Shown in pieces: positions 2,471 to 16,112 of a stretch of DNA of 40,024 nt. Source of the stretch: Lachnospiraceae bacterium. GTDB lineage: Bacteria > Bacillota > Clostridia > Lachnospirales > Lachnospiraceae. The position numbers and the translations under genes are program-made. The stretch lies in NCBI GenBank assembly GCA_024684215.1, contig JAIKXH010000050.1:1-40024 (forward strand), written 5' to 3'. The stretch's first letter is position 1. Each line of letters begins with the position of its first letter. The notes beneath the pieces were generated by a model. It worked only from the letters and a program-made list of their open reading frames with translations, was not told the DNA's origin and made no database searches.

Positions 2471-3679
2471 TCAGTTCTCGTGCTGCATTCGCCAATCTAT
2501 ACATCTTTGCAGATACTTTACATAGTCCGGATTTTTACACATGCCTTTTCCTGCATCGTCGGATATCTTGGCAACATCCTGTCCGTTACATCCCGTAGTC
2601 TTCATAACTATATTAAGAGGCTCGGCAAATGTATCATTGGATATAAAGGTTCCTATTCCGAAAGCAACCTTTATCCTGCCTTTAAAATGCTTATTTATTT
2701 TATCGGCTCTTTCAAAATCAAGGCTGTCGCTGAATAAGAGCGTCTTAGCAGTAGCATCTATCCCAAGCTCTTTATAATGAGCAAGCATCTTTTCGCCCCA
2801 CTCTATGGGGTCTCCGGAATCATGTCTTACGCCGGAGAAAAGAGTTGCAAACTGCAAATCAAAATCTCTTAAAAAGCAATCTGTAGAAACAGCGTCGGTA
2901 AGCGCAATACCGTTTTGAACACCATACTCCTTCACCCAATATCTTAATGCATATCTGTTGGAATAAGCCGGATTATGTGCATGGTCACCCTGTCCGACAC
3001 ACATGATCCACTCATGCGCCATGGTTCCGACAGGTGTAACTCCAAATTTTTTTGCGAGATATACGTTTGACGTTCCGACAAATTTAGATTTTCCAAGATT
3101 GGATTCAGCCAGTTTTTTTACGGCCATCTCCTGCGCTTCGGCGCAAAGACGCCTTCTTAAACCGAATTCACTGAACGCGGAGATATCGTACATACCGCTC
3201 GAAAGAGACCCAATCTTGTCGGAAAGCCTTTCGAGGTAGCTTTTCATAAGCTCAGCATAATCATATTTTGTTCTGAAATATACTTCATTTACAATCGCCA
3301 AAGTAGGGATTTCGTACATGGACGTATTAAGCCAGGTACCGGTCGTCTCTATATTAAGGCCGCACTCGGCATTTGTATCTATAATAAAATCTTCATACCT
3401 CGGATGCCACAACCTTAAAAAGTCAATGTATGACTTTTTAAACCAAGATATTGTCCCAAGGTATGAAAGCTCCTCTTCCGTGAAGTGAAGGTCGCAATAG
3501 GCCTTTATCTGCTCTCTTATCTCCTCAACCATCTCGGCGTCAAAATGAACGCCCTCGTTGCGACATTTAAAAGTCCAGGTTGTCTCATAGGAAGGGAAAT
3601 TATGATAAATAGCCTGTCCCATGCTAAATTTATAGAGATCCGTTTCAAGTAAACTTACTATTATCTGTTTAAGTTTCAT
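2471..3679 (-). CDS. pncB: nicotinate phosphoribosyltransferase
   Basis: PncB converts nicotinate plus PRPP into nicotinate mononucleotide, the entry step of the Preiss-Handler salvage route. The 402-aa length is right for the family. Recognisable blocks are an N-terminal LLETDLYKFSMGQAI, then WLNTSMYEIPTLAIVNEVYFR, EFGLRRR, GTSNVYLAKKFGVTPVGTMAHEW and FSGVRHDSGDP, with LLFSDSLDF and FGIGTFISND near the C-terminus. The ATG is preceded by AGAGGG. The gene has its own promoter-like site about 50 nt upstream. It lies directly ahead of nadE, which acts two steps later. A nadD homologue is not in this window. Confidence 0.95.
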   Translation of the reverse strand: MKLKQIIVSLLETDLYKFSMGQAIYHNFPSYETTWTFKCRNEGVHFDAEMVEEIREQIKAYCDLHFTEEELSYLGTISWFKKSYIDFLRLWHPRYEDFIIDTNAECGLNIETTGTWLNTSMYEIPTLAIVNEVYFRTKYDYAELMKSYLERLSDKIGSLSSGMYDISAFSEFGLRRRLCAEAQEMAVKKLAESNLGKSKFVGTSNVYLAKKFGVTPVGTMAHEWIMCVGQGDHAHNPAYSNRYALRYWVKEYGVQNGIALTDAVSTDCFLRDFDLQFATLFSGVRHDSGDPIEWGEKMLAHYKELGIDATAKTLLFSDSLDFERADKINKHFKGRIKVAFGIGTFISNDTFAEPLNIVMKTTGCNGQDVAKISDDAGKGMCKNPDYVKYLQRCIDWRMQHEN

Positions 3680-3728
3680 TTAACCCTCTTTTCGAAAAAC
3701 ACCGTCCCGTAAAGCAATTCCGCTTCAC

Positions 3729-3756
3729 ACTATATTCAAAACCAACATACCGTCAA
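3729..3756 (-). promoter_or_regulatory. predicted promoter of pncB-nadE-MBL
   Basis: On the minus strand, TTGACG (3751-3756) and TATAGT (3729-3734) are separated by 16 nt. Each is five of six to consensus. A weak hairpin of the preceding gene (3762-3766 with 3775-3779) ends just upstream. Confidence 0.6.
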
Positions 3757-3796
3757 AACACCGGTACATGTATATACCGCATTACCATTATAGATA

Positions 3797-4450
3797 TTAC
3801 TGTCTGTCAAAATAAGCTTTACCGCCGTTTGGATTAAAATACGTTCTTATATAACCATCGGTTGACAGCACGACAAACTCATTTGTATCTTCCACATAAT
3901 AAACATCATCCCCGTCCTCTGCCTCAACCTTGTGAAGCGCGTCCGGATTATTTATTACGTCAGATGCAGCTTTTTCATAAGCCTCCTCAGAATCAAAGCC
4001 CATCTCTATGCCATGCTTTTCATAGTGTTGTTTTAAGAGCTTACTGTTTCTGAAATAATACCGGGTCTCCTTGCGATCCGCAGCTTCGGTATCATCACTG
4101 TAATTGCTATCTGACGTATCGTTGGAATATCCGCTTTCAGAGTCATCATAAAAATATTCTTCTGCAGTATCATTTCCAAAATAACTGTCTATAGACTCAT
4201 CCGAAAAATAGCTTTCTGCGGTATCATTTCCAAAATATTCATCAGCAGAATCATCTGAATAATCATAATCTTCTGCAATCTCAGTATCCTCGAGAGCATA
4301 CTCAAGCATCTCTCCCATCTCGGCACACCCTGAGAAAGAAATTGCCGCGAATAAAGCCGCGGCGCAGGTTAAATATCTAATTCCGGCTGATTTAATTTCC
4401 TTTCGCTCTCGTTTAAAAAAAGTTTCCAAGCGACGAATTATACTAATCAT
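3797..4450 (-). CDS. acidic lipoprotein with putative BECR-like C-terminal domain
   Basis: This 217-aa protein has a lipobox FSGC with Cys42, preceded by a hydrophobic stretch and a long basic n-region, so it is predicted to be membrane-anchored and extracellular. Residues 50-125 form an acidic Ser/Asp/Tyr-rich linker with two copies of a YFGNDTAE motif. The last ~85 residues form a compact domain with KQHYEKHGIEMGF, ALHKVEAEDGDDVYYVE and DGYIRTYF. From memory this resembles the small Barnase/EndoU/ColicinE5/RelE-like nuclease-fold domains of Firmicutes toxins and phage proteins, but I cannot confirm it. The start overlaps the stop of the CPCC gene by an ATGA, so the two are translationally coupled. 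Confidence 0.75.
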   Translation of the reverse strand: MISIIRRLETFFKRERKEIKSAGIRYLTCAAALFAAISFSGCAEMGEMLEYALEDTEIAEDYDYSDDSADEYFGNDTAESYFSDESIDSYFGNDTAEEYFYDDSESGYSNDTSDSNYSDDTEAADRKETRYYFRNSKLLKQHYEKHGIEMGFDSEEAYEKAASDVINNPDALHKVEAEDGDDVYYVEDTNEFVVLSTDGYIRTYFNPNGGKAYFDRQ

Positions 4451-4797
4451 TCTGCCCCACCATCACTTTCTTTTTTATCGTTCAAATCGCTATCAGCGGA
4501 AATTTCCTCGGGAAAAGGTTCTCTTACGAACTCCAAATATTTTTTATCGCAAGCACCAAACTCCTTATAATTCTCCCTGGCCTTATTGAGGCTTACGTGA
4601 TTTGCACCCTCCTCGTCGGGATGCCTTGTCTGAGTAGGATCGTTTTCCCAAAAACATACAGGGCAGATCTCGTATGCCGAGTCGTCCGGATCAAGAGTCT
4701 TAAAACCGCAACAAGGGCACACCGAATAATCGGCGTGCTCCCTGTTATACTCACTTTCTTTATATGAATTCTCGTTATTTATCGATTTATCTTTCAT
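4447..4797 (-). CDS. CPCC-type cysteine-rich zinc-ribbon protein
   Basis: The protein is about 116 aa. The core YSVCPCCGFKTLDPDD ... YEICPVCFWEND contains two CxxC knuckles, which should bind one zinc, and is the signature of the cysteine-rich CPCC family, whose function is unknown. A LNKARENYKEFGAC helix follows, and the C-terminal tail is acidic. The reading frame is open to a GTG at 4827. I prefer the ATG at 4797 because GAGG lies upstream and the upstream codons overlap another small frame. It overlaps the lipoprotein gene downstream by 4 nt. A role as cytosolic partner of that lipoprotein is inference only. Confidence 0.8.
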   Translation of the reverse strand: MKDKSINNENSYKESEYNREHADYSVCPCCGFKTLDPDDSAYEICPVCFWENDPTQTRHPDEEGANHVSLNKARENYKEFGACDKKYLEFVREPFPEEISADSDLNDKKESDGGAE

Positions 4798-4909
4798 ATA
4801 ATCCAAGTTCCTCATATTCGATGTCACTCATTGCCATAGGATTACTATTTTCAAAAAGATCGCTCTTTGCCATAGGTTTACTATTTTCAAAAAGATCGCT
4901 CTTTGCCAT
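4787..4909 (-). CDS. repeat-derived 40-aa mini-ORF (uncertain)
   Basis: Reading from an ATG at 4909, the frame encodes two near-identical 12-residue units (MAKSDLFENSKP, then MAKSDLFENSNP) and a tail MAMSDIEYEELGLYER. It stops 11 nt inside the start of the CPCC gene. It is built from 36-bp tandem copies of the 3' end of the purF-like gene, read in a different frame from purF. No convincing Shine-Dalgarno sequence precedes it. It could be translated by coupling from the purF-like gene 22 nt upstream, or it could be a by-product of the repeat. Confidence 0.3.
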   Translation of the reverse strand: MAKSDLFENSKPMAKSDLFENSNPMAMSDIEYEELGLYER

Positions 4910-4938
4910 AGGTTACTATTTTTTCAAAAGATCACTCT
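4831..4938 (-). repeat. three tandem 36-bp copies spanning the purF-like stop codon
   Basis: The copies are 4831-4866, 4867-4902 and 4903-4938, with only a few differences. The copy nearest purF contains its last codons and stop (GGCAAAGAGTGATC). In the other two the stop TGA has become CGA. The array therefore looks like tandem duplication of the gene end. There are no spacers, so it is not CRISPR-like. Confidence 0.9.
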
Positions 4939-6338
4939 TTGCCGTCCCAGCAATATGTGCAAAGTTTAGAAGGATCGATTCCGGTAGCTTCAAGCATATC
5001 ATCGAGGCGGTTAAACCTAAGCGAAGTAAACTTGAGTTCCTTACAAATTTCCTCCTCCATCTTAAGGTATTTTTCAGATTCGGGATTAGCGTATTCCTGT
5101 AAAACCTCCTCGGTAACCTTGCCATTCTCCAGTCTTTCAATAACTCTTCTCGCAATCAAATCCATCTCGGAATTGGATCTGGAGAAATTAAGATATTTAC
5201 AACCGTAAAGAAGCGGAGGGCAAGCAGGTCTAATATGAACTTCTTTTGCACCGTTTTCATACAGATATTCGGTGGTCTCACGGAGCTGAGTTCCTCTTAC
5301 AATTGAATCGTCAATAAGCAAGATACTCTTTCCGTTTATAAGCTCATTTACTGCAAGCATCTTCATTTTTGCAATAAGATCGCGCTTACTCTGAATTGTA
5401 GGCATAAAAGATCTGGGCCATGTAGGAGTATACTTGATAAACGGTCTGGAAAAAGGTATTCCGGATTCGTTAGCATATCCAACAGCGTGTGCGGTACCGG
5501 AATCAGGCACTCCGGCGACAATATCAGGCTTAACATTATCGCGCTTTGCCATCTTTGCTCCGCAGTCATATCTCATCTGCTCAACATTTACTCCCTCATA
5601 GGTACTGGCGGGATAACCATAGTAAATCCAAAGGAAAGTACAGATTTTCATGTCCTTTCCGGGATCTGCAAGTGTGATACAGTTTTTCTCGGTAAGCACC
5701 ACAATCTCTCCGGGGCCGAGTTCCTTATAGTCATGATATCCAAGGTTTTTATACGCAAAATTCTCAAAGGATACACAAAAAGCATCATCCTTTTTACCTA
5801 TCTGAACCGGAGTACGTCCAAGCCTGTCTCTTGCCGCATAAATTCCTGCCTGATTTAAAAGAAGAAGTGACATGGATCCGTCAACTACTTCCTGTACAAA
5901 CTGAATGCCTTCTATCAGATTTGCCTTGCTGTTTATAAGTGCGGCAACAAGCTCAGTGGCATTTACTTCACCGGAGCTCATCTCCTGGAAATGAACATGT
6001 CCCTGGTCAAAAAGCATCTGAGTTAATTCGTCGATATTATTGATCTTACCTACGGTAGAAATCGCATATGTACCATGATGAGACCTTATTATAAGCGGCT
6101 GAGCCTCGTAGTCGGAGATACAACCGATTCCGAACCATCCGCTCATATCTTGTATTTCTTTTTCAAATTTGGTTCGAAAGGGCGCATTCTCAATATTGTG
6201 AATCGCTCTTTCAAATCCATCTTTACCATAAACGGTGATTCCGCCCCTCCTGGTGCCAAGGTGTGAGTGGTAATCTATTCCGAAGAATAAATCAAACACA
6301 CAATCCTCTTTTGATGCAACGCCAAAAAATCCACCCAT
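4932..6338 (-). CDS. purF: PurF-like amidophosphoribosyltransferase lacking the glutaminase nucleophile
   Basis: This 468-aa homologue of PurF catalyses, or descends from an enzyme that catalyses, PRPP to phosphoribosylamine. The PRPP-binding motif ILLIDDSIVRGTQ lies at residues 339-352 and is intact. The four cysteines that usually bind the Fe-S cluster appear present: Cys233, one in RPACPPLLYG, and two in the LCTYCW tail. The N-terminus is MGGFFGVAS instead of MCGI.G, so the Cys1 nucleophile is glycine. The usual GHxRYST block and the HNG of the glutaminase site are also replaced (IGCISD and STVGK). It should therefore be ammonia-dependent or regulatory unless a glutaminase partner exists. 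The ATG is clear, with AGAGGA upstream. Neighbours are purB and purC. Confidence 0.88.
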   Translation of the reverse strand: MGGFFGVASKEDCVFDLFFGIDYHSHLGTRRGGITVYGKDGFERAIHNIENAPFRTKFEKEIQDMSGWFGIGCISDYEAQPLIIRSHHGTYAISTVGKINNIDELTQMLFDQGHVHFQEMSSGEVNATELVAALINSKANLIEGIQFVQEVVDGSMSLLLLNQAGIYAARDRLGRTPVQIGKKDDAFCVSFENFAYKNLGYHDYKELGPGEIVVLTEKNCITLADPGKDMKICTFLWIYYGYPASTYEGVNVEQMRYDCGAKMAKRDNVKPDIVAGVPDSGTAHAVGYANESGIPFSRPFIKYTPTWPRSFMPTIQSKRDLIAKMKMLAVNELINGKSILLIDDSIVRGTQLRETTEYLYENGAKEVHIRPACPPLLYGCKYLNFSRSNSEMDLIARRVIERLENGKVTEEVLQEYANPESEKYLKMEEEICKELKFTSLRFNRLDDMLEATGIDPSKLCTYCWDGKE

Positions 6339-6391
6339 TTTAGTAATCCTCTTTCTAAATCAAAAATATATAGATTATAATCAAAACTTTC

Positions 6392-6414
6392 GGGCAGCCG
6401 TTTTACAGCTGCCC
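6392..6414 (-). promoter_or_regulatory. hairpin in the purB-purF spacer
   Basis: A perfect 7-bp GC-rich stem (GGGCAGC/GCTGCCC, 9-nt loop) begins 18 nt after the purB stop and ends 54 nt before the purF-like start. The downstream sequence, CGAAAGTTTTGATT, is only weakly U-rich. It may be a partial terminator or an mRNA processing or stability element that lowers expression of the last gene. Confidence 0.45.
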
Positions 6415-6431
6415 AAATCATTACATTGTTA

Positions 6432-7886
6432 TTATACGTTAATCTCAGCAGTCATACCAAGTACATCCTTGTTGGCATTAAGAATAGGTCTTACTACCTC
6501 GTTAAGGAATACTTCAACCTGTCTGGGCGCACGTCCGACATACTTAGAAAGGTCCATAGTGGAGCTCTTTAATTCTTCAAGCGTAAGTCCGAATGCGGGA
6601 TCTGCAGCAATAAGTTCAAGGAGATTATTGTCCATTCCCTCTTCTTTAACATTTCTTCCTGCTTCCATGGAAAGAGTTCTGATCTTTTCGTGAAGCTCCT
6701 GACGGTTGCCACCGTTTTTAACGGCATCCATCATGATATTCTCCGTCGCCATGAAAGGAAGTTCTGCAAGCATATGCTTTTCGATAACCTTTGGATATAC
6801 TTTGAGTCCGTCAGTAACATTTAAGCAAAGATCCAATATTCCGTCTACGGCAAGAAATCCTTCGGGAATTGAAAGTCTCTTGTTGGCGGAATCGTCAAGA
6901 GTTCTCTCAAACCACTGGGTAGCTGAGGTGATTGCGGGATTGAGTGCGTCGATCATCACGTATCTTGAAAGAGACGCAATTCTCTCACTTCTCATAGGAT
7001 TTCTCTTGTATGCCATAGCGGATGAACCGATCTGGTTTTTCTCGAAGGGCTCCTCCACTTCTTTTAAATGCTGTAAAAGTCTGATATCATTGCTCATCTT
7101 ATGAGCAGATGCTGCGATTCCGGCAAGCACATTGGCAACACGTGTATCCACTTTACGTGAATATGTCTGTCCCGAAACAGGATAGCAGTTTTCAAATCCC
7201 ATTTTCTTTGCAATCATGGGATCGATCTTGTCAATCGTCTCGTGGTCACCGTTAAAGAGCTCAAGGAATGAAGCCTGAGTTCCTGTGGTTCCCTTTGAGC
7301 CGAGAAGCTTCATTGTTGAAAGCACATGATCAAGGTCCTCTAAATCAAGGCAAAACTCCTGAAGCCAAAGAGTGGCTCTCTTACCTACCGTGGTAGGCTG
7401 AGCGGGCTGGAAGTGAGTAAATGCAAGAGTGGGCTGATTTTTGTATTCGTCGGCAAAATCAGCGAGGGTCTTCATTACGTTGAGGAGCTTTTTACGTACA
7501 AGTTTTAATCCTTCGGTCATGATTATGATATCGGTATTGTCTCCGACATAGCATGAGGTTGCACCGAGGTGGATGATTCCTGCTGCCTTGGGGCACTGCT
7601 GTCCGTATGCATATACATGGCTCATTACATCGTGACGAACCTCCTTCTCACGAGCCTTAGCCACATCATAATTGATATCCTCGGCATGTGATTTAAGTTC
7701 ATCTATCATTTCCTGTGTGATAACAGGCTTTCCGTCCTTAGAAAGACCAAGCTCCATCTCGGTCTCAGCGAGAGCGATCCAAAGCTTTCTCCAAGTGCGG
7801 AATTTCATATCCTGTGAAAAAATGTACTGCATTTCCTTGCTTGCGTAACGCTCTGACAAGGGACTTGAATAAACATCTGTTGCCAT
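6432..7886 (-). CDS. purB: adenylosuccinate lyase
   Basis: PurB cleaves fumarate from SAICAR and from adenylosuccinate, at two points of purine synthesis. The 484-aa product has the fumarase/aspartase-superfamily signature GSSAMAYKRNPMRSERI near residue 290, a GATSCYVGDNTD block near 110, and THFQPAQPTTVGKRA near 160. The length matches the larger, eukaryote-like form common in Clostridia. The ATG is preceded by AGAGGA. The gene lies between purC, whose product forms its SAICAR substrate, and the PurF-like gene, so an operon is likely. Confidence 0.95.
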   Translation of the reverse strand: MATDVYSSPLSERYASKEMQYIFSQDMKFRTWRKLWIALAETEMELGLSKDGKPVITQEMIDELKSHAEDINYDVAKAREKEVRHDVMSHVYAYGQQCPKAAGIIHLGATSCYVGDNTDIIIMTEGLKLVRKKLLNVMKTLADFADEYKNQPTLAFTHFQPAQPTTVGKRATLWLQEFCLDLEDLDHVLSTMKLLGSKGTTGTQASFLELFNGDHETIDKIDPMIAKKMGFENCYPVSGQTYSRKVDTRVANVLAGIAASAHKMSNDIRLLQHLKEVEEPFEKNQIGSSAMAYKRNPMRSERIASLSRYVMIDALNPAITSATQWFERTLDDSANKRLSIPEGFLAVDGILDLCLNVTDGLKVYPKVIEKHMLAELPFMATENIMMDAVKNGGNRQELHEKIRTLSMEAGRNVKEEGMDNNLLELIAADPAFGLTLEELKSSTMDLSKYVGRAPRQVEVFLNEVVRPILNANKDVLGMTAEINV

Positions 7887-7969
7887 TTAAAAATCCTCTT
7901 TCTAAAAGTAATCAAAAATTATAATACATAGCTTCCCTAAATACATCCCCAAATGCATACTAAGCTTTT

Positions 7970-8042
7970 GTACAGCTTATATATTAAATCTTTTTGCAGC
8001 TATTATATTAAAGCCTTTATAGCTTTCATATCAAAGCTTTTT
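7970..8042 (-). repeat. three imperfect ~24-bp tandem copies at the end of purC
   Basis: Units at 8019-8042, 7996-8018 and 7970-7995 share the pattern AAA-A-GCTTTAATATAxxAGCT. The first unit includes the last two codons and the TGA of purC. A fourth, more decayed unit may follow toward purB. The copies are more diverged than those after purF. Confidence 0.75.
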
Positions 8043-8900
8043 GCCGGTAAGAAGCTCATATCCCTTGTGATAAATGTCGATGGTCTTGTTGACAACATCC
8101 TCGGGAAGAGTCCAGTTATGTCCGTCATTTGCCTTGAGCCAGTCTCTTGCAAACTGCTTGTCAAATGAAGGCTGTGAATGTCCTGCTTCATAACCGTCGG
8201 CAGGCCAGAATCTTGAGCTGTCGGGAGTGAGCATTTCATCTCCGAGCACAATATTTCCGCTTTCATCAAGTCCGAACTCAAACTTGGTATCTGCAATTAT
8301 AATGCCTTTTGTAAGAGCATAATCTGCACACTTTTTGTAGAGGGCGATAGTGTAATCACGGAGCTTTGAAGCATACTCTTCTCCCTTTCCGGGGAATCTC
8401 TCCTCAAGGTATGCAACGCTCTGTTCATAAGAGATATTCTCATCATGATCACCGATCTCAGCCTTGGTGGAAGGAGTATAAATAGGCTCAGGGAGCTTGT
8501 CGGATTCCTTTAATCCTTCGGGAAGAGTGATTCCGCATACAGTCTGAGTTTTCTGATAGCTTGCCCAGCCGCTTCCTGTGATATATCCTCTGACAATACA
8601 CTCAACCGGAAGCATAGTAAGCTTTCTGCACATCATGCTTCTTCCCTCAAATTTAGAATTTCTAAATCCTTCGGGCATATCATTTACATCTACGGAAACC
8701 ATATGATTGGGGATAATATCCTTAGTCATGTCAAACCAGAATTTTGACATCTGTGTGAGAACCTTTCCCTTATCCGTAACAGTGTTGTTTAAAATAACGT
8801 CAAAACAACTGATACGGTCTGTGGCAACGATGATGAGAGTGTCACCGTTATCATAGATCTCTCTTACTTTTCCTTCTTTAATGGGTTTTACTTCTTTCAT
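8031..8900 (-). CDS. purC: SAICAR synthetase
   Basis: PurC ligates aspartate to CAIR using ATP, giving SAICAR. The protein has the glycine-rich IKEGKVREIYD start, VATDRISCFDV, the PVECIVRGYITGSGW block, and TKAEIGDHDENIS with IIADTKFEFG near residues 175-235, all standard for the family. A frame-compatible ATG exists at 8918, but a GGAGG 11 nt ahead of the ATG at 8900 and a predicted transcription start near 8916 favour the shorter 289-aa form. It leads the purC-purB-purF-like unit. Confidence 0.93.
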   Translation of the reverse strand: MKEVKPIKEGKVREIYDNGDTLIIVATDRISCFDVILNNTVTDKGKVLTQMSKFWFDMTKDIIPNHMVSVDVNDMPEGFRNSKFEGRSMMCRKLTMLPVECIVRGYITGSGWASYQKTQTVCGITLPEGLKESDKLPEPIYTPSTKAEIGDHDENISYEQSVAYLEERFPGKGEEYASKLRDYTIALYKKCADYALTKGIIIADTKFEFGLDESGNIVLGDEMLTPDSSRFWPADGYEAGHSQPSFDKQFARDWLKANDGHNWTLPEDVVNKTIDIYHKGYELLTGKKL

Positions 8901-8921
8901 TTTTTCGGAATCCTCCATAAA

Positions 8922-8951
8922 ATATTAATAACCTTTGGTTATCGTTAACAA
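8922..8951 (-). promoter_or_regulatory. possible purC promoter with embedded inverted repeat
   Basis: On the minus strand, TTGTTA (8946-8951) and TAATAT (8922-8927) are 18 nt apart. The spacer contains a perfect 6-bp inverted repeat ATAACC-AAA-GGTTAT (8928-8942), which could be an operator. A weak alternative is a minimal terminator for the upstream operon. Confidence 0.4.
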
Positions 8952-8965
8952 GTTACAGTTTTTAG

Positions 8966-10126
8966 CTACGCCTCTTTGCTATTCAAAAGCTCTATTATTT
9001 CTCCGGCGTATTCGGGGTAAAGCTTTGCAATATCTTCTATTTCCTGCTTAGCATCTTCCGCAAGTTTTTTATTGTAATCGATCTGCTCTCTTACTCTTTG
9101 CCTTCTTATTATCAGTTCGTGCCTTATTTCAACCATTTCACGCTGGTCCTTTAAGGCTTCTATCTGATAAAGCCATCTGTCAGGGTATTTTACCCTATAT
9201 CCGGACAAAAGCTCAACAAGATGCTTTTGGAAATATTCACTTTGTGCCTGAGCCTCTGTAAACTGGCGCCTTTCCTCTTTCTCAAGCTGATAGGCTTTCC
9301 AGAGTTTTTCAAGTTTCTCACCGTTTTCGACATGATATTTGACATACAGATATTCCAATAGCTTTCTGTTGTTTACATATCTGATCTTTACTGTATTTTG
9401 AAGTGAGATAAGCTTATTTATCTCAACCTGAATCTGTTTTGATTCCTTTACCGCATCCATATATTTTATGGCGGTTACGGCTGCGGCTATCGCCACAAGA
9501 GCGGTAGCAAGAAAATACCCTATAAATACATTTAAATCGAGTGCAAACTGGAAAAACAAAAGAAGCAACATACAAAATATATAAGCGCTTATAAAAATAT
9601 AAGCCATGCCTTTATAATTGCTCATATTCTTTTGATTTTCACTTTTTCTGTACAGTCTGGCCTGACGCTCTCCGTCCAGTCTTCTTAGATCCCTCTTTAC
9701 GGCGATTCCGTACTTTTCGGCCTCGCGGATCTTTGCTATACCTTCCTCAACTTCCTGCTCACGCTTTTTTAAAGTGTAATATTCAATATCCGTCATCCTG
9801 CTTTTGCGGTCACGGTACTTTTGAATCTCGGCGCTGTAAGCCGTAAGCTGATTTGCCACAGCTTCAATCTCGGTTTTTTTCTCCGGAGGAAGCTCATCTA
9901 TCTCATCCGCATCCGTCAGATAATCCGTTACAAGCTGATACTCTCCCGCGAGAAGTTCCACCTCTCTTGAGGATTCCTCCATCTGGTCGAGGCAATCCAT
10001 AAAATATCTGCTCCGGTCCTCGGGGTTTGAAAGATTGACTCCGTTTCGGCCCTGCAAAAAACCGTCGTCTGAATCTTCGTTATTCTTTTTTGAAAACAGT
10101 AAAGCAAGCTTTTTAAATATATTCAT
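8966..10126 (-). CDS. coiled-coil membrane protein of the DUF5716/5717 operon
   Basis: This 386-aa protein belongs to no family I recognise. It has a basic N-terminus and a long charged helical region from about 35 to 165 with heptad-like spacing. Two adjacent hydrophobic segments follow at about 173-195 and 198-222. A second charged coiled-coil region runs to the C-terminus. There is no signal peptide, so both helical domains are predicted to face the cytosol, linked by a membrane hairpin. Its ATG overlaps the stop of the TPR gene (ATGA), which implies coupled translation. It is the last gene of the four-gene unit and probably its membrane anchor (inference). Confidence 0.8.
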   Translation of the reverse strand: MNIFKKLALLFSKKNNEDSDDGFLQGRNGVNLSNPEDRSRYFMDCLDQMEESSREVELLAGEYQLVTDYLTDADEIDELPPEKKTEIEAVANQLTAYSAEIQKYRDRKSRMTDIEYYTLKKREQEVEEGIAKIREAEKYGIAVKRDLRRLDGERQARLYRKSENQKNMSNYKGMAYIFISAYIFCMLLLLFFQFALDLNVFIGYFLATALVAIAAAVTAIKYMDAVKESKQIQVEINKLISLQNTVKIRYVNNRKLLEYLYVKYHVENGEKLEKLWKAYQLEKEERRQFTEAQAQSEYFQKHLVELLSGYRVKYPDRWLYQIEALKDQREMVEIRHELIIRRQRVREQIDYNKKLAEDAKQEIEDIAKLYPEYAGEIIELLNSKEA

Positions 10127-10980
10127 ACACTCACATTTTCTCTGTAACTGTCTTTTAGGCCTTTAAGAATACGGTCGTTTTCCTCGTAGTATTTATAAGC
10201 CTCGTCGGTATCTCTCATCTGTCTTCTCAGCTTAAGCTGATGTGTCTCTGCCAAAGACTCCCAATCGTTTTTGATTGTCTCTATGGTCTTTTCAAGCCTG
10301 AGCGTATCATCTCTGCTTTCGGTCATTCCCGCGGCAAAAGCTATATAATCGCTGTCGGAAAGCCCCATTCTCTTTGCTGCAATAAATGCCAGGAAATGTT
10401 CTCTGTTTCCGTCAAGCTTATAAGCTTCGTTAAACGAATCCGCAGCCTTTTCATAGAGCATAAGTCCCGTATATGCCACGCCAAGATTGTGATATATGGC
10501 AGCCAATACATCAATCCCCGGAAGGATCATCGTATTGTTTTCACTGACATAATTCCACTTGTCTATTAAAGCGCTGTAGCCTCTTACAGCAGATACATAT
10601 TTTTTCTTGGACACAAGGTAATCGATCTGGCTTTTGTGCCTTTCTATAGCGGAAAGACCGGTGTTTTTCTTTAATACCTTTCTCACAGAATCGATATAAT
10701 ACATATCCTGAAGTCCGGTGTATTCCATTATCAGACATACAAATGTGCTGACGGAACCCTGTCTTTGGATAATGGCATGCATCTGCGTAGCCAGTTCCGG
10801 GAGCTTGCACTCATATTCAACCCACTCCGCCAAGGATCTGTTCATAATGGACCTGTCCACAAGTACAGCGTTTTCACCAAGCAGATAGCAAAGCTCCTCA
10901 ACACAGTATACAGGAGCATCCAGTCCCGGAATAATATATGGAGTTTTCGCGTATTTTCCTACTGAAATGGTTACACGCAT
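10123..10980 (-). CDS. TPR-repeat protein of the DUF5716/5717 operon
   Basis: The protein is about 285 aa. The N-terminal ~100 residues (MRVTISVGKYAKTPYIIPGL ... VEELCYLLGENA) form a domain I do not recognise. From about 120 on it is helical. The helix pair around IYHNLGVAYTGLMLYEKAADSFNEAYKLD matches the TPR pattern, and a charged helix ends the protein. The frame is open to a TTG at 11004. I chose the ATG at 10980 because the upstream codons look non-conserved, though its AAGG site is rather distant. It lies between the Hsp70-like and coiled-coil genes. An adaptor role is inference. Confidence 0.82.
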   Translation of the reverse strand: MRVTISVGKYAKTPYIIPGLDAPVYCVEELCYLLGENAVLVDRSIMNRSLAEWVEYECKLPELATQMHAIIQRQGSVSTFVCLIMEYTGLQDMYYIDSVRKVLKKNTGLSAIERHKSQIDYLVSKKKYVSAVRGYSALIDKWNYVSENNTMILPGIDVLAAIYHNLGVAYTGLMLYEKAADSFNEAYKLDGNREHFLAFIAAKRMGLSDSDYIAFAAGMTESRDDTLRLEKTIETIKNDWESLAETHQLKLRRQMRDTDEAYKYYEENDRILKGLKDSYRENVSV

Positions 10981-11007
10981 TTTACTTAAGGTCAATCCTT
11001 TCAAAAA

Positions 11008-12297
11008 TTACTGGATTGGAATCTCTTCTCTCCAGATTTTATGGGTAGATGGTCTGAACTCTCCGAATCCCAGATCCTCGATCTCAGCTATAAGAATCTT
11101 TTCACTTTCCATATAAAGCTTACATCTGAGCCTTGTGATCTTCATTGAAAAATCATCGAGTGTTATTCTGGCGATTCTGTCGCCCGCACCCACCAAAGAG
11201 CGGATAATAAACTCAATATAATCCCCGTCCTGAATATAAAACTCAAAGGTTTCGTTTGCATCATACCAGCTTACTCCGGCATCAAGTATTGCAAAATACG
11301 TCTCATCATTTTGGTTTAGAATATTCATACCGATATTCGCCGTCAATTTATCATTGCCGAGGAATATATTCTTTTTCTCTATGGGCTGTGAAAGATTTCT
11401 GTCTATAAGTCCGTAGCAGGCACCCTTACTGTATAAATTGGAACCCTGAAATACCCTGTATTTGCTGCAAAGATATTTTTTTGATTCCTTCATCCATACA
11501 TCATCATATCCGGAACCGATCAAAAATACACTTGTGGTATCTTCTATCTCGCAGGCTTCCTTGGCTATATTCATAAAAGTACGGTCAAGCTGAATAAGTT
11601 CGTAATCCGTATCGGATGAATTATCCCTGCTGCCTCCAGGCATCGGATAGTGCTTTTCATCAATATAGACGACCACGGGAATCGTACCGAAATTCGATTC
11701 CATGCGGTATGCCGTTATCTCATCATTTTCATACTCTAAAAGTATGCTTCCGTTTCTCCAGAGTTCATCGGGCTGGTGAGTCATGAAATGATAATAGCTC
11801 TCCATCCTGCTCTGGAAATATATCTTTTCGGTCTTTAATTTAAGCAGTGAAACTGCTTCTTTTAATACGCCTATGTTCTCGTATGTGAGGTTCTCCGCGG
11901 TAAAGAGCACTCCGGCAACTCTGTCGGAATACACCGCTGTTACAAGCGACATACATCTTTTAATATACAAAGCGAGGAGTGACACCGGCTGGTAAGGCAC
12001 CTGATCCACCAATATAGGAGCACCGCGTCTTGCCAAAGTAAGCAAATGGTCCACAAGTATTCCGTCTTCATCCTTTGCGTGTTCTATAGCTTCTCTTCCG
12101 TAGAACCATTGGTTAACGCCTTCGCGTTTACAAAGGGCCGTGGGAATATTGTAATCCTCTTCACCTGTTGTGAGCGATACGGTCTCCACGGTTTTGCCGT
12201 CATGTGAAAAACTGATCTGGCAAAAATTATCTCCAATGTTAAAGCCGACAAATATTTTATTGTTACCTCCCGACATAAAGCCCGGCAACTTGATCAT
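11008..12297 (-). CDS. Hsp70/actin-fold-like protein (DUF5716-like)
   Basis: This 429-aa protein resembles a divergent DnaK. FVGFNIGDNFCQISF at the N-terminus matches the phosphate-1 strand pair (DLGTTNS-like, Asp changed to Asn). IPTAL...WFYGREAIEHA matches the TPS..G..A region, and VFLIGSGYDD with SKGACYGL matches the adenosine/GG region. A C-terminal beta-rich segment from about 320 (SLVGAGDRIARITLDDF) is like an Hsp70 substrate-binding sandwich. The phosphate-2 glycines are absent, so ATP hydrolysis is doubtful. From memory it corresponds to DUF5716. A TAGGAG site precedes the ATG, 11 nt after the large upstream gene. Confidence 0.8.
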   Translation of the reverse strand: MIKLPGFMSGGNNKIFVGFNIGDNFCQISFSHDGKTVETVSLTTGEEDYNIPTALCKREGVNQWFYGREAIEHAKDEDGILVDHLLTLARRGAPILVDQVPYQPVSLLALYIKRCMSLVTAVYSDRVAGVLFTAENLTYENIGVLKEAVSLLKLKTEKIYFQSRMESYYHFMTHQPDELWRNGSILLEYENDEITAYRMESNFGTIPVVVYIDEKHYPMPGGSRDNSSDTDYELIQLDRTFMNIAKEACEIEDTTSVFLIGSGYDDVWMKESKKYLCSKYRVFQGSNLYSKGACYGLIDRNLSQPIEKKNIFLGNDKLTANIGMNILNQNDETYFAILDAGVSWYDANETFEFYIQDGDYIEFIIRSLVGAGDRIARITLDDFSMKITRLRCKLYMESEKILIAEIEDLGFGEFRPSTHKIWREEIPIQ

Positions 12298-12308
12298 TGG
12301 TACTACTC

Positions 12309-15300
12309 CTACAACAGTCTGAATAATTCTTCGTTCATGTATCTGCGGAGATTATAGTCCTCATATTGGCTGTCAAATCTTCCGTAGTCTTTGGTTGTAT
12401 TGCTTATAAGCATATCGTTTATGCGCATATAGAGGTTTTTCTTGTCGTTTCCCATAGTGTTGTTACAAGAAACCTGTCCGTTGTCGGAAAGTGACGCCTC
12501 GTCATCGCCCTCTTCCGTAATGTAATACTGAAGAGTCTCTCCGAAAAATAAAATGAAATCTTTAAAACAAATACCGCCGCATACTTCTCTCATATTTTCC
12601 GAAGCGTAATCATAAGACTCAGTATTTCCGTTTTCATATACGTAATGAATCTTAGCGCTCTTTCCGGATTTAATACGATAATCTATAATGGTGCGGTCCT
12701 GTATCTCTCCGAGGATAATATCGCACTTAGCCTTGTTTTGGGGATTTTTAAATACCCCGGGACCAAGGAATTTTTTAAAGAAGCCAAGATATATTCTGTC
12801 TCTTATCTCAGTCTTTAAGAAAGCGATCACTATCTCTTCGGCTTCGTCATCCATCTCATACGGTCTCTCGGAATAATACTTTAAAAAGGCAAGTCTCGAC
12901 GGGAGCGCAACTTCAAGTTTACTCCTGTAAATCGACGCTATCGCTTCGTTGATATTCTTATCCTCTGCCGCTCTTCCGGCCAAATATCTGTATGAAGCCT
13001 GTATTATTACAGCTCTTGATATATCCGCGGTGGGATCATATAAGACGCATTCCTTTGCGATCTCATTTATCTCAGGGATGTACATATCACTGTGAAGATG
13101 TCTTGTAATAATCCGCCTGTCTATATCTATCAGAGGTAAATTGTATTCCTTTAGGGCTTTTCTGATTTCCACAAGTTCCCTGGAAGAGCCTCTAAAATTC
13201 TTTGCAAGGAACTCTAATATGAGTGAGTCCGCATTGTTCTCTCTAAATACATGGATGGCAGCTGCGAGCATGGAATTTTCATATGCACTCTCGTCGTAAG
13301 TTCCGTCTCCTTTGCCGATTTCTTTGATCTCCCTGTCAAGGAATCTCTTGAGATTTACCTTACCGACAAAATAGGGACCGAATCTGATCAGCCAATCTCT
13401 GATAACCTCCATATATCCGAATCTGTACAGATGAGGGAAAAGTCTTCCCATCTGCTCAGCGGTAAGTCCCTCACTTCCTAACATTCTAAAGCATCTTGAG
13501 AAGGAGTTTTCATCATCGTGATTACTGTAATACTCCATAGCCAAAGTAAGCATATTTCGTCTGATGTACGGTCTTATCTTCTCCGATTCGCCAAGCTGCA
13601 TAAATCTTGACACATTTCCGGATGTAACGGTAACAGTGCTGTTCCCCGTTCCCACAATATGCATATTAAGTCTCTCGTTGTCCCAGACAAGGTTCGTAAC
13701 AACCTGGAGATATTTTGACATCGGCATGAGATCTGTTTCGGAAAACTTAACCGAATTGATATATCTGTTGCCCTTTGAATCCTCAAATACAATGATATAT
13801 CCTCTGCCGTATGCGCATACGGCTCCCTCACCTTCTTTAAGTTCATATACGAAAGGCGATATGCATCCTTTTTGATATACATAGGCTCTTTCGAAATCTT
13901 TTCTCTCACAAACTACCCATTTCGAGAAAAGGATATTTGATATATGTATCGCCTGCTGCCTGCTGATGAGGTCAGGGCGAAAAACATCAGAATAAATAAC
14001 TGCCAAATGTTTGTTTACATTGCCCTTTGCAATCTCCGCATTTGCGAAAAATTCCATATTGGCAATGCTTGCTTCATAAAGTTCCTCGTATTTATCCTTA
14101 TGAGTGATGATGTAGTAATAAAAATATGCCAGCTGGTCTGCACCCAGATTATTTCTGTATCCGAAATACATAAGCACAACAAGTGGGATGTCCTCGTCAG
14201 CGTCCAAATCTATAGACTGGATAAAATACTCAAAAAGTCCGGTAAGTTTTATGTCCTTTTCTATAGCTTTCCTGTACCATGCATTGGCAACTTTATCAAT
14301 ACGATTTGCGTATATCAGCTGTGCACATATTTCCTGTAAAATCCTTATATCGTCATACTGCTCATACAAAAGCTCGAGCATATGAATATGCACATTGTTT
14401 CCGGTTTTGGTCCTCTGTGAAAAAGAAAGAACCATCTCGAGACATTTTTGATTTACAACGCCTCTTTTTGCGCCGAAATACACGGTCTGGATGAGAAATG
14501 AATCCATCTTTTTGGCGACCATGGGATTTTCATTCAAGGTTTTTATACCCTCGTAGTATATAACCGCGCTTCGGCTTCCGGCCTCAAAAAGTTTTTCCAA
14601 AAGACTCCACCTTGTATAGGTGTTTGCATTATATGTGGTGGGAAGCAGCAAAGCTATAAAGCCAATCTGCCAGTTGGAAGGTGCTTTTTTCAAAATTGCC
14701 TCAACCTTAGTAGCGGCAACCTTGGTGAATTCTTTATCCTGCTTGACTAAAGAGGCGGTAAGCCAATGATAAGCATATGCCTCCAAAAGCTTTTCCCCTT
14801 TAAGGGATCCCTCCCTCTCATCGTGCTCGATTATCTCCGCAGCCTGATCAACAAGCCATCCTGCCTCGTTATGCCTTTCCTCTATGCATAAAAGTCTTGC
14901 TTTAAATAATCTTACATAGACATCGTTTCCGGCAAGAGCGGATAACTTTTCTACGGTCTCACCGGTCTTTTTGAACCACTCGTGCTCATCCATGAGTCCA
15001 AGTCCGCGGAGAATATAATCCCTCGTGATGGTCTCAAGAAGAATCGCCTTTGACCTGGTGGCTTTTTGCGTAATGACCTCGGAACGTCCTTTAACGACCA
15101 CGGGGATTTCCAGGCGGGCAAAATTATTTTTAAGGATTATTCTGCCTTCTCTTCTACCCTTTAAGCATTTGTCGGTATCTATAAACAGCTTTAAAGTGCA
15201 TACATTTCCGGTAAAATCGGTATCACTGAGGACTTCTCTCCTTGTGAGCAAAAAGTCCCCTTCAATTTCTATATCTATATTCGAGTAACTCCATCCGTTT

Positions 15301-15965
15301 CTGAGGATTTCGATTTCTCTCTCAGCCAGGCGCTCTGAATATTCAACGCCCAAGATGGCTGTCTCGAAAGTTTTCTTCTCGTAAAAATATTCGACCTTCG
15401 GCTTTTTTCCTGTGCCGAGTAGGAATTCTTCAAGATTTTGAGAGTTGCCGGGATTGGCAGAAAGTGCTAGATACATTCCCATGAAATACTCGTCGCTTCC
15501 GCTGAGTATTCCCTTAAATTTGGGTGAATAAAATAAGTCAATGGCTTCGTTCCAATTATCTTTTGCAAGATTCACAAAGCTGAATAAATTTCTGATACGG
15601 CCCGCTGAGGATTCCAACTCTCCGGGTTCAATGCGTACATCAAAGGGAACGGACGATTCACCATGATCGCTTATAATGCTGAAATACCCCTTTATCTCAT
15701 CGCCCGGTTTGCATAAATCTCCGTGGAAATGATATGAAACAATCATCTCTGTGCCCGCAATCTCAGGATTAAGTACTTCCATCCTAAGGTCGGATGAGAT
15801 AACAAAAGCATCCGCCACACTTCCGTCGGATGTGAACACTCTAAAGGAACCCTCGTAATCGCAATCACAGGATACCTCTATCTCAACCTTTGAAAGCTGG
15901 CAGTTAAGGGAGCCGGTATTTTGTATGTAATTTCCATCTAAAATCCTGCTGATTATATCCCGCAT
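12309..15965 (-). CDS. 1218-aa beta-sandwich/alpha-solenoid protein (DUF5717-like)
   Basis: The first gene of the four-gene unit encodes a very large protein with no signal peptide and no membrane segment. Residues ~20-115 and ~225-295 look like Ig-like beta domains separated by a helical stretch. Residues ~310-690 and ~800-1080 are long arrays of helical pairs resembling TPR/solenoid repeats. A beta patch lies near 700-790 (AYGRGYIIVFEDSKGNRYI) and another at 1090-1175 precedes an acidic tail. From memory the family is DUF5717, found in Lachnospiraceae and of unknown role. A scaffold for the Hsp70-like partner is a reasonable guess. The ATG is preceded by GGGGAA and a well-formed promoter. 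Confidence 0.82.
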   Translation of the reverse strand: MRDIISRILDGNYIQNTGSLNCQLSKVEIEVSCDCDYEGSFRVFTSDGSVADAFVISSDLRMEVLNPEIAGTEMIVSYHFHGDLCKPGDEIKGYFSIISDHGESSVPFDVRIEPGELESSAGRIRNLFSFVNLAKDNWNEAIDLFYSPKFKGILSGSDEYFMGMYLALSANPGNSQNLEEFLLGTGKKPKVEYFYEKKTFETAILGVEYSERLAEREIEILRNGWSYSNIDIEIEGDFLLTRREVLSDTDFTGNVCTLKLFIDTDKCLKGRREGRIILKNNFARLEIPVVVKGRSEVITQKATRSKAILLETITRDYILRGLGLMDEHEWFKKTGETVEKLSALAGNDVYVRLFKARLLCIEERHNEAGWLVDQAAEIIEHDEREGSLKGEKLLEAYAYHWLTASLVKQDKEFTKVAATKVEAILKKAPSNWQIGFIALLLPTTYNANTYTRWSLLEKLFEAGSRSAVIYYEGIKTLNENPMVAKKMDSFLIQTVYFGAKRGVVNQKCLEMVLSFSQRTKTGNNVHIHMLELLYEQYDDIRILQEICAQLIYANRIDKVANAWYRKAIEKDIKLTGLFEYFIQSIDLDADEDIPLVVLMYFGYRNNLGADQLAYFYYYIITHKDKYEELYEASIANMEFFANAEIAKGNVNKHLAVIYSDVFRPDLISRQQAIHISNILFSKWVVCERKDFERAYVYQKGCISPFVYELKEGEGAVCAYGRGYIIVFEDSKGNRYINSVKFSETDLMPMSKYLQVVTNLVWDNERLNMHIVGTGNSTVTVTSGNVSRFMQLGESEKIRPYIRRNMLTLAMEYYSNHDDENSFSRCFRMLGSEGLTAEQMGRLFPHLYRFGYMEVIRDWLIRFGPYFVGKVNLKRFLDREIKEIGKGDGTYDESAYENSMLAAAIHVFRENNADSLILEFLAKNFRGSSRELVEIRKALKEYNLPLIDIDRRIITRHLHSDMYIPEINEIAKECVLYDPTADISRAVIIQASYRYLAGRAAEDKNINEAIASIYRSKLEVALPSRLAFLKYYSERPYEMDDEAEEIVIAFLKTEIRDRIYLGFFKKFLGPGVFKNPQNKAKCDIILGEIQDRTIIDYRIKSGKSAKIHYVYENGNTESYDYASENMREVCGGICFKDFILFFGETLQYYITEEGDDEASLSDNGQVSCNNTMGNDKKNLYMRINDMLISNTTKDYGRFDSQYEDYNLRRYMNEELFRLL

Positions 15966-16021
15966 CGGATTCCCCGCCGTCTACAAACTATTACGGAAGT
16001 ATGCAAACTACCGCAACTTTA

Positions 16022-16050
16022 ATTATACCAAAATAAAAAGGTCTAGGCAA
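16022..16050 (-). promoter_or_regulatory. promoter of the DUF5717-Hsp70-like-TPR-coiled-coil operon
   Basis: On the minus strand, TTGCCT (16045-16050) and a perfect TATAAT (16022-16027) are 17 nt apart. The predicted start near 16015 leaves a ~50-nt leader. The -35 box lies inside the terminator stem of ilvE. Confidence 0.65.
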
Positions 16051-16081
16051 CGATTGATTGACCAACCGTAGCCCGGACCTT
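16031..16081 (-). terminator. intrinsic terminator of ilvE
   Basis: On the minus strand, an interrupted stem AAGGTC-GGC-ACG pairs across a ~14-nt loop and is followed by TTTTTATTTT. It lies 31 nt after the ilvE stop. The U-rich tail is also the spacer of the downstream promoter. Confidence 0.65.
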
Positions 16082-16112
16082 CATGTTTTTTTTGTATAAA
16101 ATTATTAGCAGA

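Follow-up and report, generated by a model that had tools for sequence, protein, structure and literature searches.

A predicted pseudo-Hsp70 encoded beside an Ig-solenoid protein in a functionally undescribed gene set of Lachnospiraceae

Introduction

What might an Hsp70-like protein do in a bacterium once it lacks the residues needed for ATP hydrolysis? This question is raised by four adjacent genes on contig JAIKXH010000050.1 of a Lachnospiraceae bacterium (assembly GCA_024684215.1), of which a stretch of 40,024 nucleotides (nt), here called the window, was analysed. The Lachnospiraceae form one of the major bacterial families of the gut and rumen. The original prediction, made from the sequence alone, held that the four products look like parts of one machine, plausibly a membrane-tethered chaperone or a cytoskeletal-like complex. 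We found no relevant description of DUF5716, DUF5717 or the cluster in open-licence papers; the proteins belong to named Pfam families without assigned function.

The four genes, with the evidence for each, are as follows (TPR, tetratricopeptide repeat; aa, amino acids; Ig, immunoglobulin).

12309..15965, minus strand: DUF5717 protein, 1218 aa, proposed scaffold (Pfam; AlphaFold)
11008..12297, minus strand: DUF5716 protein, 429 aa, pseudo-Hsp70 (Pfam; AlphaFold; Foldseek; motif loss; tree)
10123..10980, minus strand: TPR protein, 285 aa (start ATG at 10980), proposed adaptor (start from relatives; hhalign)
8966..10126, minus strand: coiled-coil protein, 386 aa, proposed membrane anchor (hydropathy; alignment; homologue in family f4)

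Results

The DUF5716 protein is a predicted pseudo-Hsp70

The 429-aa protein is a member of DUF5716_C (PF18980), with an E value of 2.3e-83 and 280 bits against a curated cut-off of 34.7, although the profile spans only residues 130-427. An AlphaFold model built with 64 sequences reached a pLDDT (predicted local distance difference test) of 87.7 and a pTM (predicted template modelling score) of 0.82. Comparison of this model with the PDB by Foldseek returned Hsp70s, the best being DnaK (1.5e-19); the core of the ribosome-associated complex (RAC), which contains Ssz1, stood at rank 11, and Sse1 and Hsp110:Hsc70 structures at ranks 34, 39 and 49. Template modelling (TM) scores normalised by query length ranged from 0.45 to 0.63 among the 50 matches listed, which in the model is consistent with shared domains in a differing arrangement. 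The predicted fold is that of an Hsp70, with a nucleotide domain and a beta substrate domain, and is not actin/MreB-like. Thus, the original prediction, which had staked itself on a fold related to actin or Hsp70 for 11008-12297, is borne out by an Hsp70 fold.

The C-terminal end of the model can be placed on the window as follows.

11011..11370, minus strand: nearly all-beta C-terminal part of the DUF5716 protein, residues about 310-429 (model; long Hsp70 alignments)

This part, whose boundary we infer from the model, corresponds to the substrate-binding beta domain of Hsp70s. The predicted chain stops with it, and the alpha-helical lid is absent from the AlphaFold model. At the level of sequence profiles, the window protein gave no match to PF00012 at E 0.1. 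Four weak matches from a single-sequence search of the PDB (best 0.0028, a ubiquitin hydrolase) were dismissed as chance.

The protein was aligned with DnaK and other Hsp70s, and motif columns were placed by motif patterns; the E171 column was not used, its alignment being ambiguous. The count covers 99 rows (97 distinct) from the window's family, Lachnospiraceae (f1 in our numbering), the window's own row being shown apart; from 103 loci, three without DUF5716 (contig ends) and one with a cut open reading frame (ORF) of 232 aa were excluded. The catalytic lysine (its column gapped in two rows), the phosphate-1 threonine and the phosphate-2 aspartate were each present in 0/99, and the same three columns were intact in all 17 sequences of Hsp70-A, -B and -C, the Hsp70s of a larger cluster described below. 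The first glycine of the adenosine motif was found in 99/99 rows and the second in none. The phosphate-1 aspartate was retained in 89/99 and is an asparagine in the window protein. As the ATPase-site residues are lost, ATP hydrolysis by the DUF5716 protein is unlikely, and on its sequence we regard it as a pseudo-Hsp70. The description of a divergent DnaK-like protein with altered phosphate loops therefore holds for fold and motifs but understates the case, since the residues of the ATPase site are gone; for want of those catalytic residues, a chaperone in the cycling sense is unlikely.

The DUF5717 protein combines Ig-like domains with a solenoid

The 1218-aa protein matched DUF5717_N (PF18984; 8.9e-217, 722 bits) and DUF5717 (PF18983; 2.4e-62, 211 bits), against a cut-off of 25. 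The assignments of both DUF5717 and DUF5716 in the original prediction were thus correct and far over the Pfam cut-offs. A model of residues 1-1200 (45 sequences; pLDDT 85.9, pTM 0.57) comprised two Ig-like beta domains followed by a long alpha solenoid, interrupted by a beta insert, and then by a beta domain at the C terminus, bearing out the proposed Ig-plus-solenoid architecture.

15591..15908, minus strand: Ig-like beta domain 1, residues about 20-125 (model strands; weak Foldseek Ig tandems)
15087..15398, minus strand: Ig-like beta domain 2, residues about 190-293 (model strands; weak Foldseek Ig tandems)
12705..15071, minus strand: alpha solenoid, residues about 299-1087, with a beta insert at about 681-745 (helix pairs in the model; weak Foldseek TPR-type solenoids)

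Foldseek matches were weak and generic (TPR solenoids and Ig tandems), with TM-scores by query length of at most 0.14 among the 50 listed, so for this protein we claim only the architecture.

The TPR and coiled-coil proteins

Pfam gave the TPR protein weak TPR matches to a single stretch, all under cut-off. However, hhalign relates it (99.2%) to a homologue in the larger cluster in which the TPRs are clear, which supports its proposed identity as a TPR adaptor. In the coiled-coil protein, hydropathy revealed two adjacent hydrophobic segments, one from residue 174 and the other from residue 200 (region about 174-218), and profile comparison with its homologue in family f4 gave 99.8%. The hydrophobic segments and long helical parts agree with the predicted membrane protein, in which the coiled coil itself is putative. 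NCBIfam matches of these two proteins, and their weak Pfam matches other than TPRs, were dismissed as chance or compositional.

The gene set is nearly universal in Lachnospiraceae

A profile search detected DUF5716_C in 195 of 200 f1 genomes, and in 162 of the 165 with a completeness of at least 90% and a contamination of at most 5%. Three of the five genomes without it carried DUF5717_N, which in one lay close to the end of a contig and in another was broken into pieces.

Gene order was surveyed in 103 loci, consisting of 23 chosen by hand, one per genus, and the best 80 of at least 473 obtained with the window's DUF5717 and six of its close relatives as seeds, a set biased to near relatives. 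One contig is present in both sets (L036 = L104), leaving 102 loci distinct by DUF5717. The order DUF5717-DUF5716-TPR was kept in 98 of the 103, with the coiled-coil gene next in 88 (87 with the four genes and one with the TPR gene in two ORFs); 10 had no coiled-coil gene and five were shorter. All five shorter loci, and one of the 10, stop at most 107 bases from a contig end. Among the hand-chosen loci, the three-gene core was present in 23/23 and the coiled-coil gene in 14/23 (in L051 within a 950-aa ORF). The DUF5717 ORF is shorter in L052 (853 aa) and L053 (897 aa). One contig titled Muribaculaceae (L162) carries a Lachnospiraceae-type operon; its title is probably wrong.

Thus, the expectation that the four products form one linked set was upheld within the family by both order and co-occurrence, and in f1 no confident assignment of the genes to a known pathway arose. 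Unlinked neighbourhoods, the outcome that had been named as counting against a system, were not met within f1; outside it, linkage takes a different and larger form.

Related families encode a larger cluster with intact Hsp70s

Across the order, DUF5717_N was detected in 145 of 295 genomes, 97 of them outside f1. We read 20 of these 97, chosen by hand, and found a cluster of the larger type, whole or partial, in 19. Its parts are an Ig protein (about 400 aa), a solenoid protein (about 900 aa), Hsp70-A, a GrpE fusion, a DUF5716-like Hsp70, Hsp70-B, Hsp70-C-vWA and a TPR protein. The GrpE fusion is a helical protein with a C-terminal GrpE (Pfam 3e-13), and the vWA domain on Hsp70-C matched at 1.9e-10. 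Ig and solenoid are fused in L057. Hsp70-A is the next gene after the solenoid in 17 of the 19 (with 1.4 kb between the two in G034), the exceptions being G192 and G027.

All eight parts were found in nine of the 19 (G038, G024, G034 with intergenic gaps, G088, G045, G066, G255, G007 and G003); in G007 they are contiguous and in order in one stretch (L184). Seven clusters are cut by contig or stretch ends (G029, G006, G018, G243, G223, G004 and G023). In the stretches read from the remaining three, other parts were not found: G192 and G027 had Ig and solenoid only, and G188 had neither Hsp70-C nor TPR. The twentieth genome, G167 (family f8), has the reduced form without the coiled-coil gene (L183).

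Several further observations were made around these clusters. In the draft genome G003, the Hsp70-vWA gene (L055 840-2884) and the TPR gene (L084 16205-17231) are each split in two ORFs. A protein with hydrophobic segments lies beside the Ig gene in L058, L061, L063, L064, L066, L067, L070 and L071; the three that were scored (L058, L067, L070) had three strong hydrophobic segments, and the protein is perhaps an analogous anchor. A run of genes resembling type III CRISPR, by eye only, lies near the cluster of G038 (L079 1029-10340). In another family of the class, L180 (G456:C1:686000-705900) carries at 3325-15804 TerD/TerB and TerF-vWA genes followed by three Hsp70 genes, of which two are adjacent and the last is separated from them by a further ORF. 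This is a second instance in which vWA lies close to tandem Hsp70s. A class-wide profile search with the DUF5716-like alignment gave a tally of 252 of 291, mostly through housekeeping-type Hsp70s, and was rejected as a measure of the distribution of the system.

The four-gene set resembles a reduced form of the larger cluster

Three of the four window proteins have homologues in the larger cluster, and the coiled-coil protein has one in the f4 version. Profile comparison of f1 DUF5716 with the DUF5716-like subunit gave 99.8%. In a tree, midpoint-rooted for drawing only, a 100/100 branch divides the DUF5716-type rows, without exception, from DnaK, Hsp70-A, -B and -C, each a separate group; DUF5716 of f1 and f4 (G003) group together at 100/100, and the DUF5716-like proteins of other families at 91/91.

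The DUF5716-like subunit of another family still matches PF00012 (1.4e-17). Among 11 such subunits of other families, the catalytic lysine was present in none; arginine occupied the phosphate-2 aspartate position in 11/11, and the phosphate-1 aspartate was kept in 11/11. The subunit thus seems already inactive in the larger clusters, so its inactivity is not a product of reduction.

Orthologues of Hsp70-A, -B and -C and of the GrpE fusion were not found in 48 f1 genomes. There, long matches to the three Hsp70s had about 28-38% identity and shorter pieces at most 44%, as for DnaK; between other families Hsp70-A is 57-84% identical, and 93% within f24. No match in these 48 genomes covered both the Hsp70 and the vWA part of Hsp70-C, and the GrpE fusion was matched by its GrpE tail only, in five of them. 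The four-gene set thus looks like a reduced form of the larger cluster with its three intact Hsp70s and GrpE fusion. Family f4 combines the full set with the coiled-coil gene and a downstream valS (NCBIfam), and valS also directly follows the operon in four of the 103 f1 loci. On this co-occurrence f4, represented by G003, a draft with split ORFs, looks intermediate, which would favour loss in f1 as the origin of the reduced form.

Selection and mobility

Relative to the close relative L094, the TPR gene gave a dN/dS (ratio of non-synonymous to synonymous substitution rates) of 0.05; for the other three, synonymous sites were saturated and pN/pS (the corresponding ratio of uncorrected proportions) was 0.10-0.16. 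Over the same comparison the operon proteins had dN of 0.08-0.15, against 0.02-0.03 for PurB and PurC encoded downstream. By these sequence comparisons the operon genes are constrained by purifying selection and evolve faster than their neighbours.

No plasmid match was found for the DUF5716 protein. The DUF5717 search matched four records labelled as phage, two of which were read, MT835486.1 (L186) and MT835988.1 (L187), both unverified Bacteriophage sp. Each holds all four genes, although one record breaks off within the last of them; valS, in two pieces, is likewise present in one. A mobile origin was rejected, as there was no plasmid match and the two records look like bacterial contigs.

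Operon layout and flanking signals

The ORF check of the window found all four genes at their predicted positions on the minus strand. Gaps of 11 nt and 27 nt are followed, in gene order, by a 4-nt ATGA overlap, in full agreement with the predicted spacing. The TPR ORF could alternatively start at a TTG at 11004, giving 293 aa (10123-11004) and reducing the second gap to 3 nt; in an alignment, relatives start at about the ATG at 10980.

16022..16050, minus strand: promoter-like site TTGCCT-17-TATAAT with extended TG (sequence scan; relatives)
16037..16082, minus strand: hairpin terminator of ilvE, the upstream gene, its 3' arm overlapping the operon -35 site (RNA fold z -5.5; sequence)
8031-8918 and 6432-7886, downstream of the operon: purC and purB, respectively (purC, purB and ilvE named by NCBIfam)

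A single promoter had been predicted. One promoter-like site does lie upstream of the operon, and among five close relatives it is unchanged in three (L094, L095 and L096), has TTGCCT with TATACT in L098 and is missing from the alignment of L097. However, such sites occur in the region at chance level (21 found, 21.5 expected from shuffles). The overlap of the ilvE terminator with the promoter-like site is preserved in at least three close relatives. At the other end, 47 nt separate the coiled-coil gene from purC; the scan detected nothing resembling a terminator in this gap, so the operon transcript may continue into purC-purB. Downstream genes vary among the 103 f1 loci, with purB in 63, purC of the window's type in 20 and valS directly after the operon in four.

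Discussion

A proposed client-holding scaffold without its own ATPase

The reading that we prefer, with a little less than even confidence, is that the four proteins form a non-cycling Hsp70 scaffold, tethered to the membrane and similar to Ssz1, from which clients may be passed to housekeeping DnaK. We infer a single complex at the membrane. In it, the beta domain of the DUF5716 protein would hold client peptides or partner tails without cycling, in the manner of Ssz1; the DUF5717 protein would serve as platform and the TPR protein as adaptor, and the coiled-coil protein would be the anchor that fixes them to the membrane's inner face. Following a presumed loss of the dedicated Hsp70s and GrpE fusion, any ATP-driven step could be supplied by housekeeping DnaK and GrpE, both of which are present in the window's genome (L181). 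A bolder version would see here a bacterial counterpart to the principle of Ssz1: a dead Hsp70, once the pseudo-subunit of a dedicated three-Hsp70/GrpE/vWA machine, would have outlasted its active partners and would now be central to a client-holding complex that is tethered to the membrane and essential, or nearly so, throughout Lachnospiraceae, possibly passing clients to DnaK; we entertain it as possible, with distinctly more doubt.

Several results weigh against this scaffold. Client binding by the DUF5716 protein and its link to DnaK are proposed by analogy, and, whereas Ssz1 has a J-domain protein as partner, no DnaJ match was found among the four window proteins and 10 cluster proteins of other families, DnaJ not being sought elsewhere in the genome. 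The retained phosphate-1 aspartate means that the DUF5716 protein could still bind nucleotide, and in 8/99 rows a lysine lies one column off the catalytic position, which leaves some doubt about the alignment there. Of the four genes, that for the coiled-coil protein is the least consistently present, and the anchor may not be essential: its profile had no match in nine of the 23 hand-chosen loci, each extending at least 6.6 kb beyond the TPR gene. The membrane protein beside the Ig gene in the larger clusters was considered as its counterpart and rejected (hhalign 1.3%). Two genomes at least 90% complete (G597 and G657) gave no match to either DUF5716_C or DUF5717_N. Finally, constraint appears weaker against the more distant L097, with a dN/dS of 0.18 for the TPR gene and pN/pS of 0.25-0.44 at saturated synonymous sites.

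Other explanations

One alternative is a regulated stress or conflict system, in which scaffold and TPR protein act as sensor with an Hsp70-derived threshold switch, a scheme already put forward for GTPase systems that carry Hsp70 and GrpE, and perhaps in a Ter-like manner. Precedent exists in the neighbourhoods of GAP1-N2 GTPases, which hold Hsp70, GrpE and FNIII proteins fused to DnaJ or TPRs and, in a subset, a second Hsp70 without a peptide-binding domain (PMC7159879). The larger cluster likewise has a vWA domain fused to an Hsp70, the Ter cluster of G456 joins a TerF-type vWA to three Hsp70s, and when six other-family proteins were compared with PADLOC, Hsp70-B and Hsp70-C matched PDC-M61B (8.7e-11 and 4.4e-7) and the TPR protein three models (to 4e-6). 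Nevertheless, the four window proteins matched no PADLOC family at E 0.01, the DUF5716 protein has no plasmid match, no variable effector gene was noticed beside the operon, and presence in 195/200 genomes is unlike the patchy occurrence of conflict systems; we consider this explanation unlikely. It is rather improbable, too, that the DUF5716 protein behaves like Hsp110/Sse1, a non-folding Hsp70 relative placed by the scaffold where it can serve DnaK as nucleotide exchange factor or holdase. Sse1 and Hsp110:Hsc70 do appear among its Foldseek matches, and the GrpE fusion not found in f1 could leave an exchange role open; Hsp110, however, has an extended lid region where the DUF5716 protein has no lid, the DUF5716-like subunit lacks catalytic residues even where the GrpE fusion is present, and the window's genome encodes housekeeping DnaK and GrpE.

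The Hsp70 nucleotide domain shares the actin ATPase fold, and the operon encodes a protein with membrane segments, which together would suit a cytoskeletal-like assembly, an actin-fold protein polymerising on the membrane via the coiled-coil anchor. This part of the original prediction found no support: the DUF5716 protein has the beta substrate domain, its best structural matches are Hsp70s, Pfam gives it no MreB/FtsA match, and the lost ATPase residues argue against nucleotide-driven polymerisation. We judge such an assembly very improbable. Scarcely credible, in our view, is a decaying, functionless relic of the larger Hsp70 cluster. The partner genes not found in 48 f1 genomes and the faster evolution of the operon proteins relative to PurB and PurC would fit decay, but near-universal retention, conserved gene order, open frames and purifying selection would not.

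Significance and comparison with known systems

A gene set without described function is thus present in nearly every sampled genome of Lachnospiraceae. For Hsp70 evolution it also amounts to a natural experiment, in which active Hsp70s and a GrpE fusion are kept by related families, and only the pseudo-Hsp70 and scaffold by f1. If the proposed complex forms, bacteria would allow a direct test of whether a non-hydrolysing Hsp70 can act as a client-holding module in its own right.

Membership of DUF5717_N, DUF5717 and DUF5716_C places the window proteins in families that carry no function, and the DUF5716 name is silent on Hsp70. With DnaK and other Hsp70s of PF00012 the DUF5716 protein shares its predicted fold; unlike them it has no PF00012 match, lid, catalytic lysine or phosphate-2 aspartate, features expected of a DnaK-type cycling chaperone. 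A closer likeness is to Ssz1, the RAC pseudo-Hsp70 of fungi and other eukaryotes. Ssz1 is described as a protein without a lid that binds ATP and does not hydrolyse it (PMC7083937). Both proteins pair Hsp70 nucleotide and beta substrate domains; in the window protein a lid is absent from the model and catalytic residues are missing from the sequence, the latter suggesting that it too may be non-hydrolysing. Unlike Ssz1, it is bacterial, no J-protein partner was found for it, and it comes with Ig-solenoid, TPR and membrane proteins; on present evidence it is not an orthologue.

The larger cluster, for its part, recalls the GAP1-N2 systems of Kaur et al. (2020; PMC7159879), the nearest published neighbourhoods that we came upon, which combine Hsp70, GrpE and a beta-domain/TPR protein and in a subset also have a reduced second Hsp70. 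Those systems have a GTPase core in a conflict-type setting; no GTPase was found among the cluster proteins scanned from the window and other families, more distant genes not being scanned. Unlike them, the set described here is near-universal in its family, is built around an Ig-solenoid protein of the DUF5717 family and keeps a pseudo-Hsp70 without the active ones.

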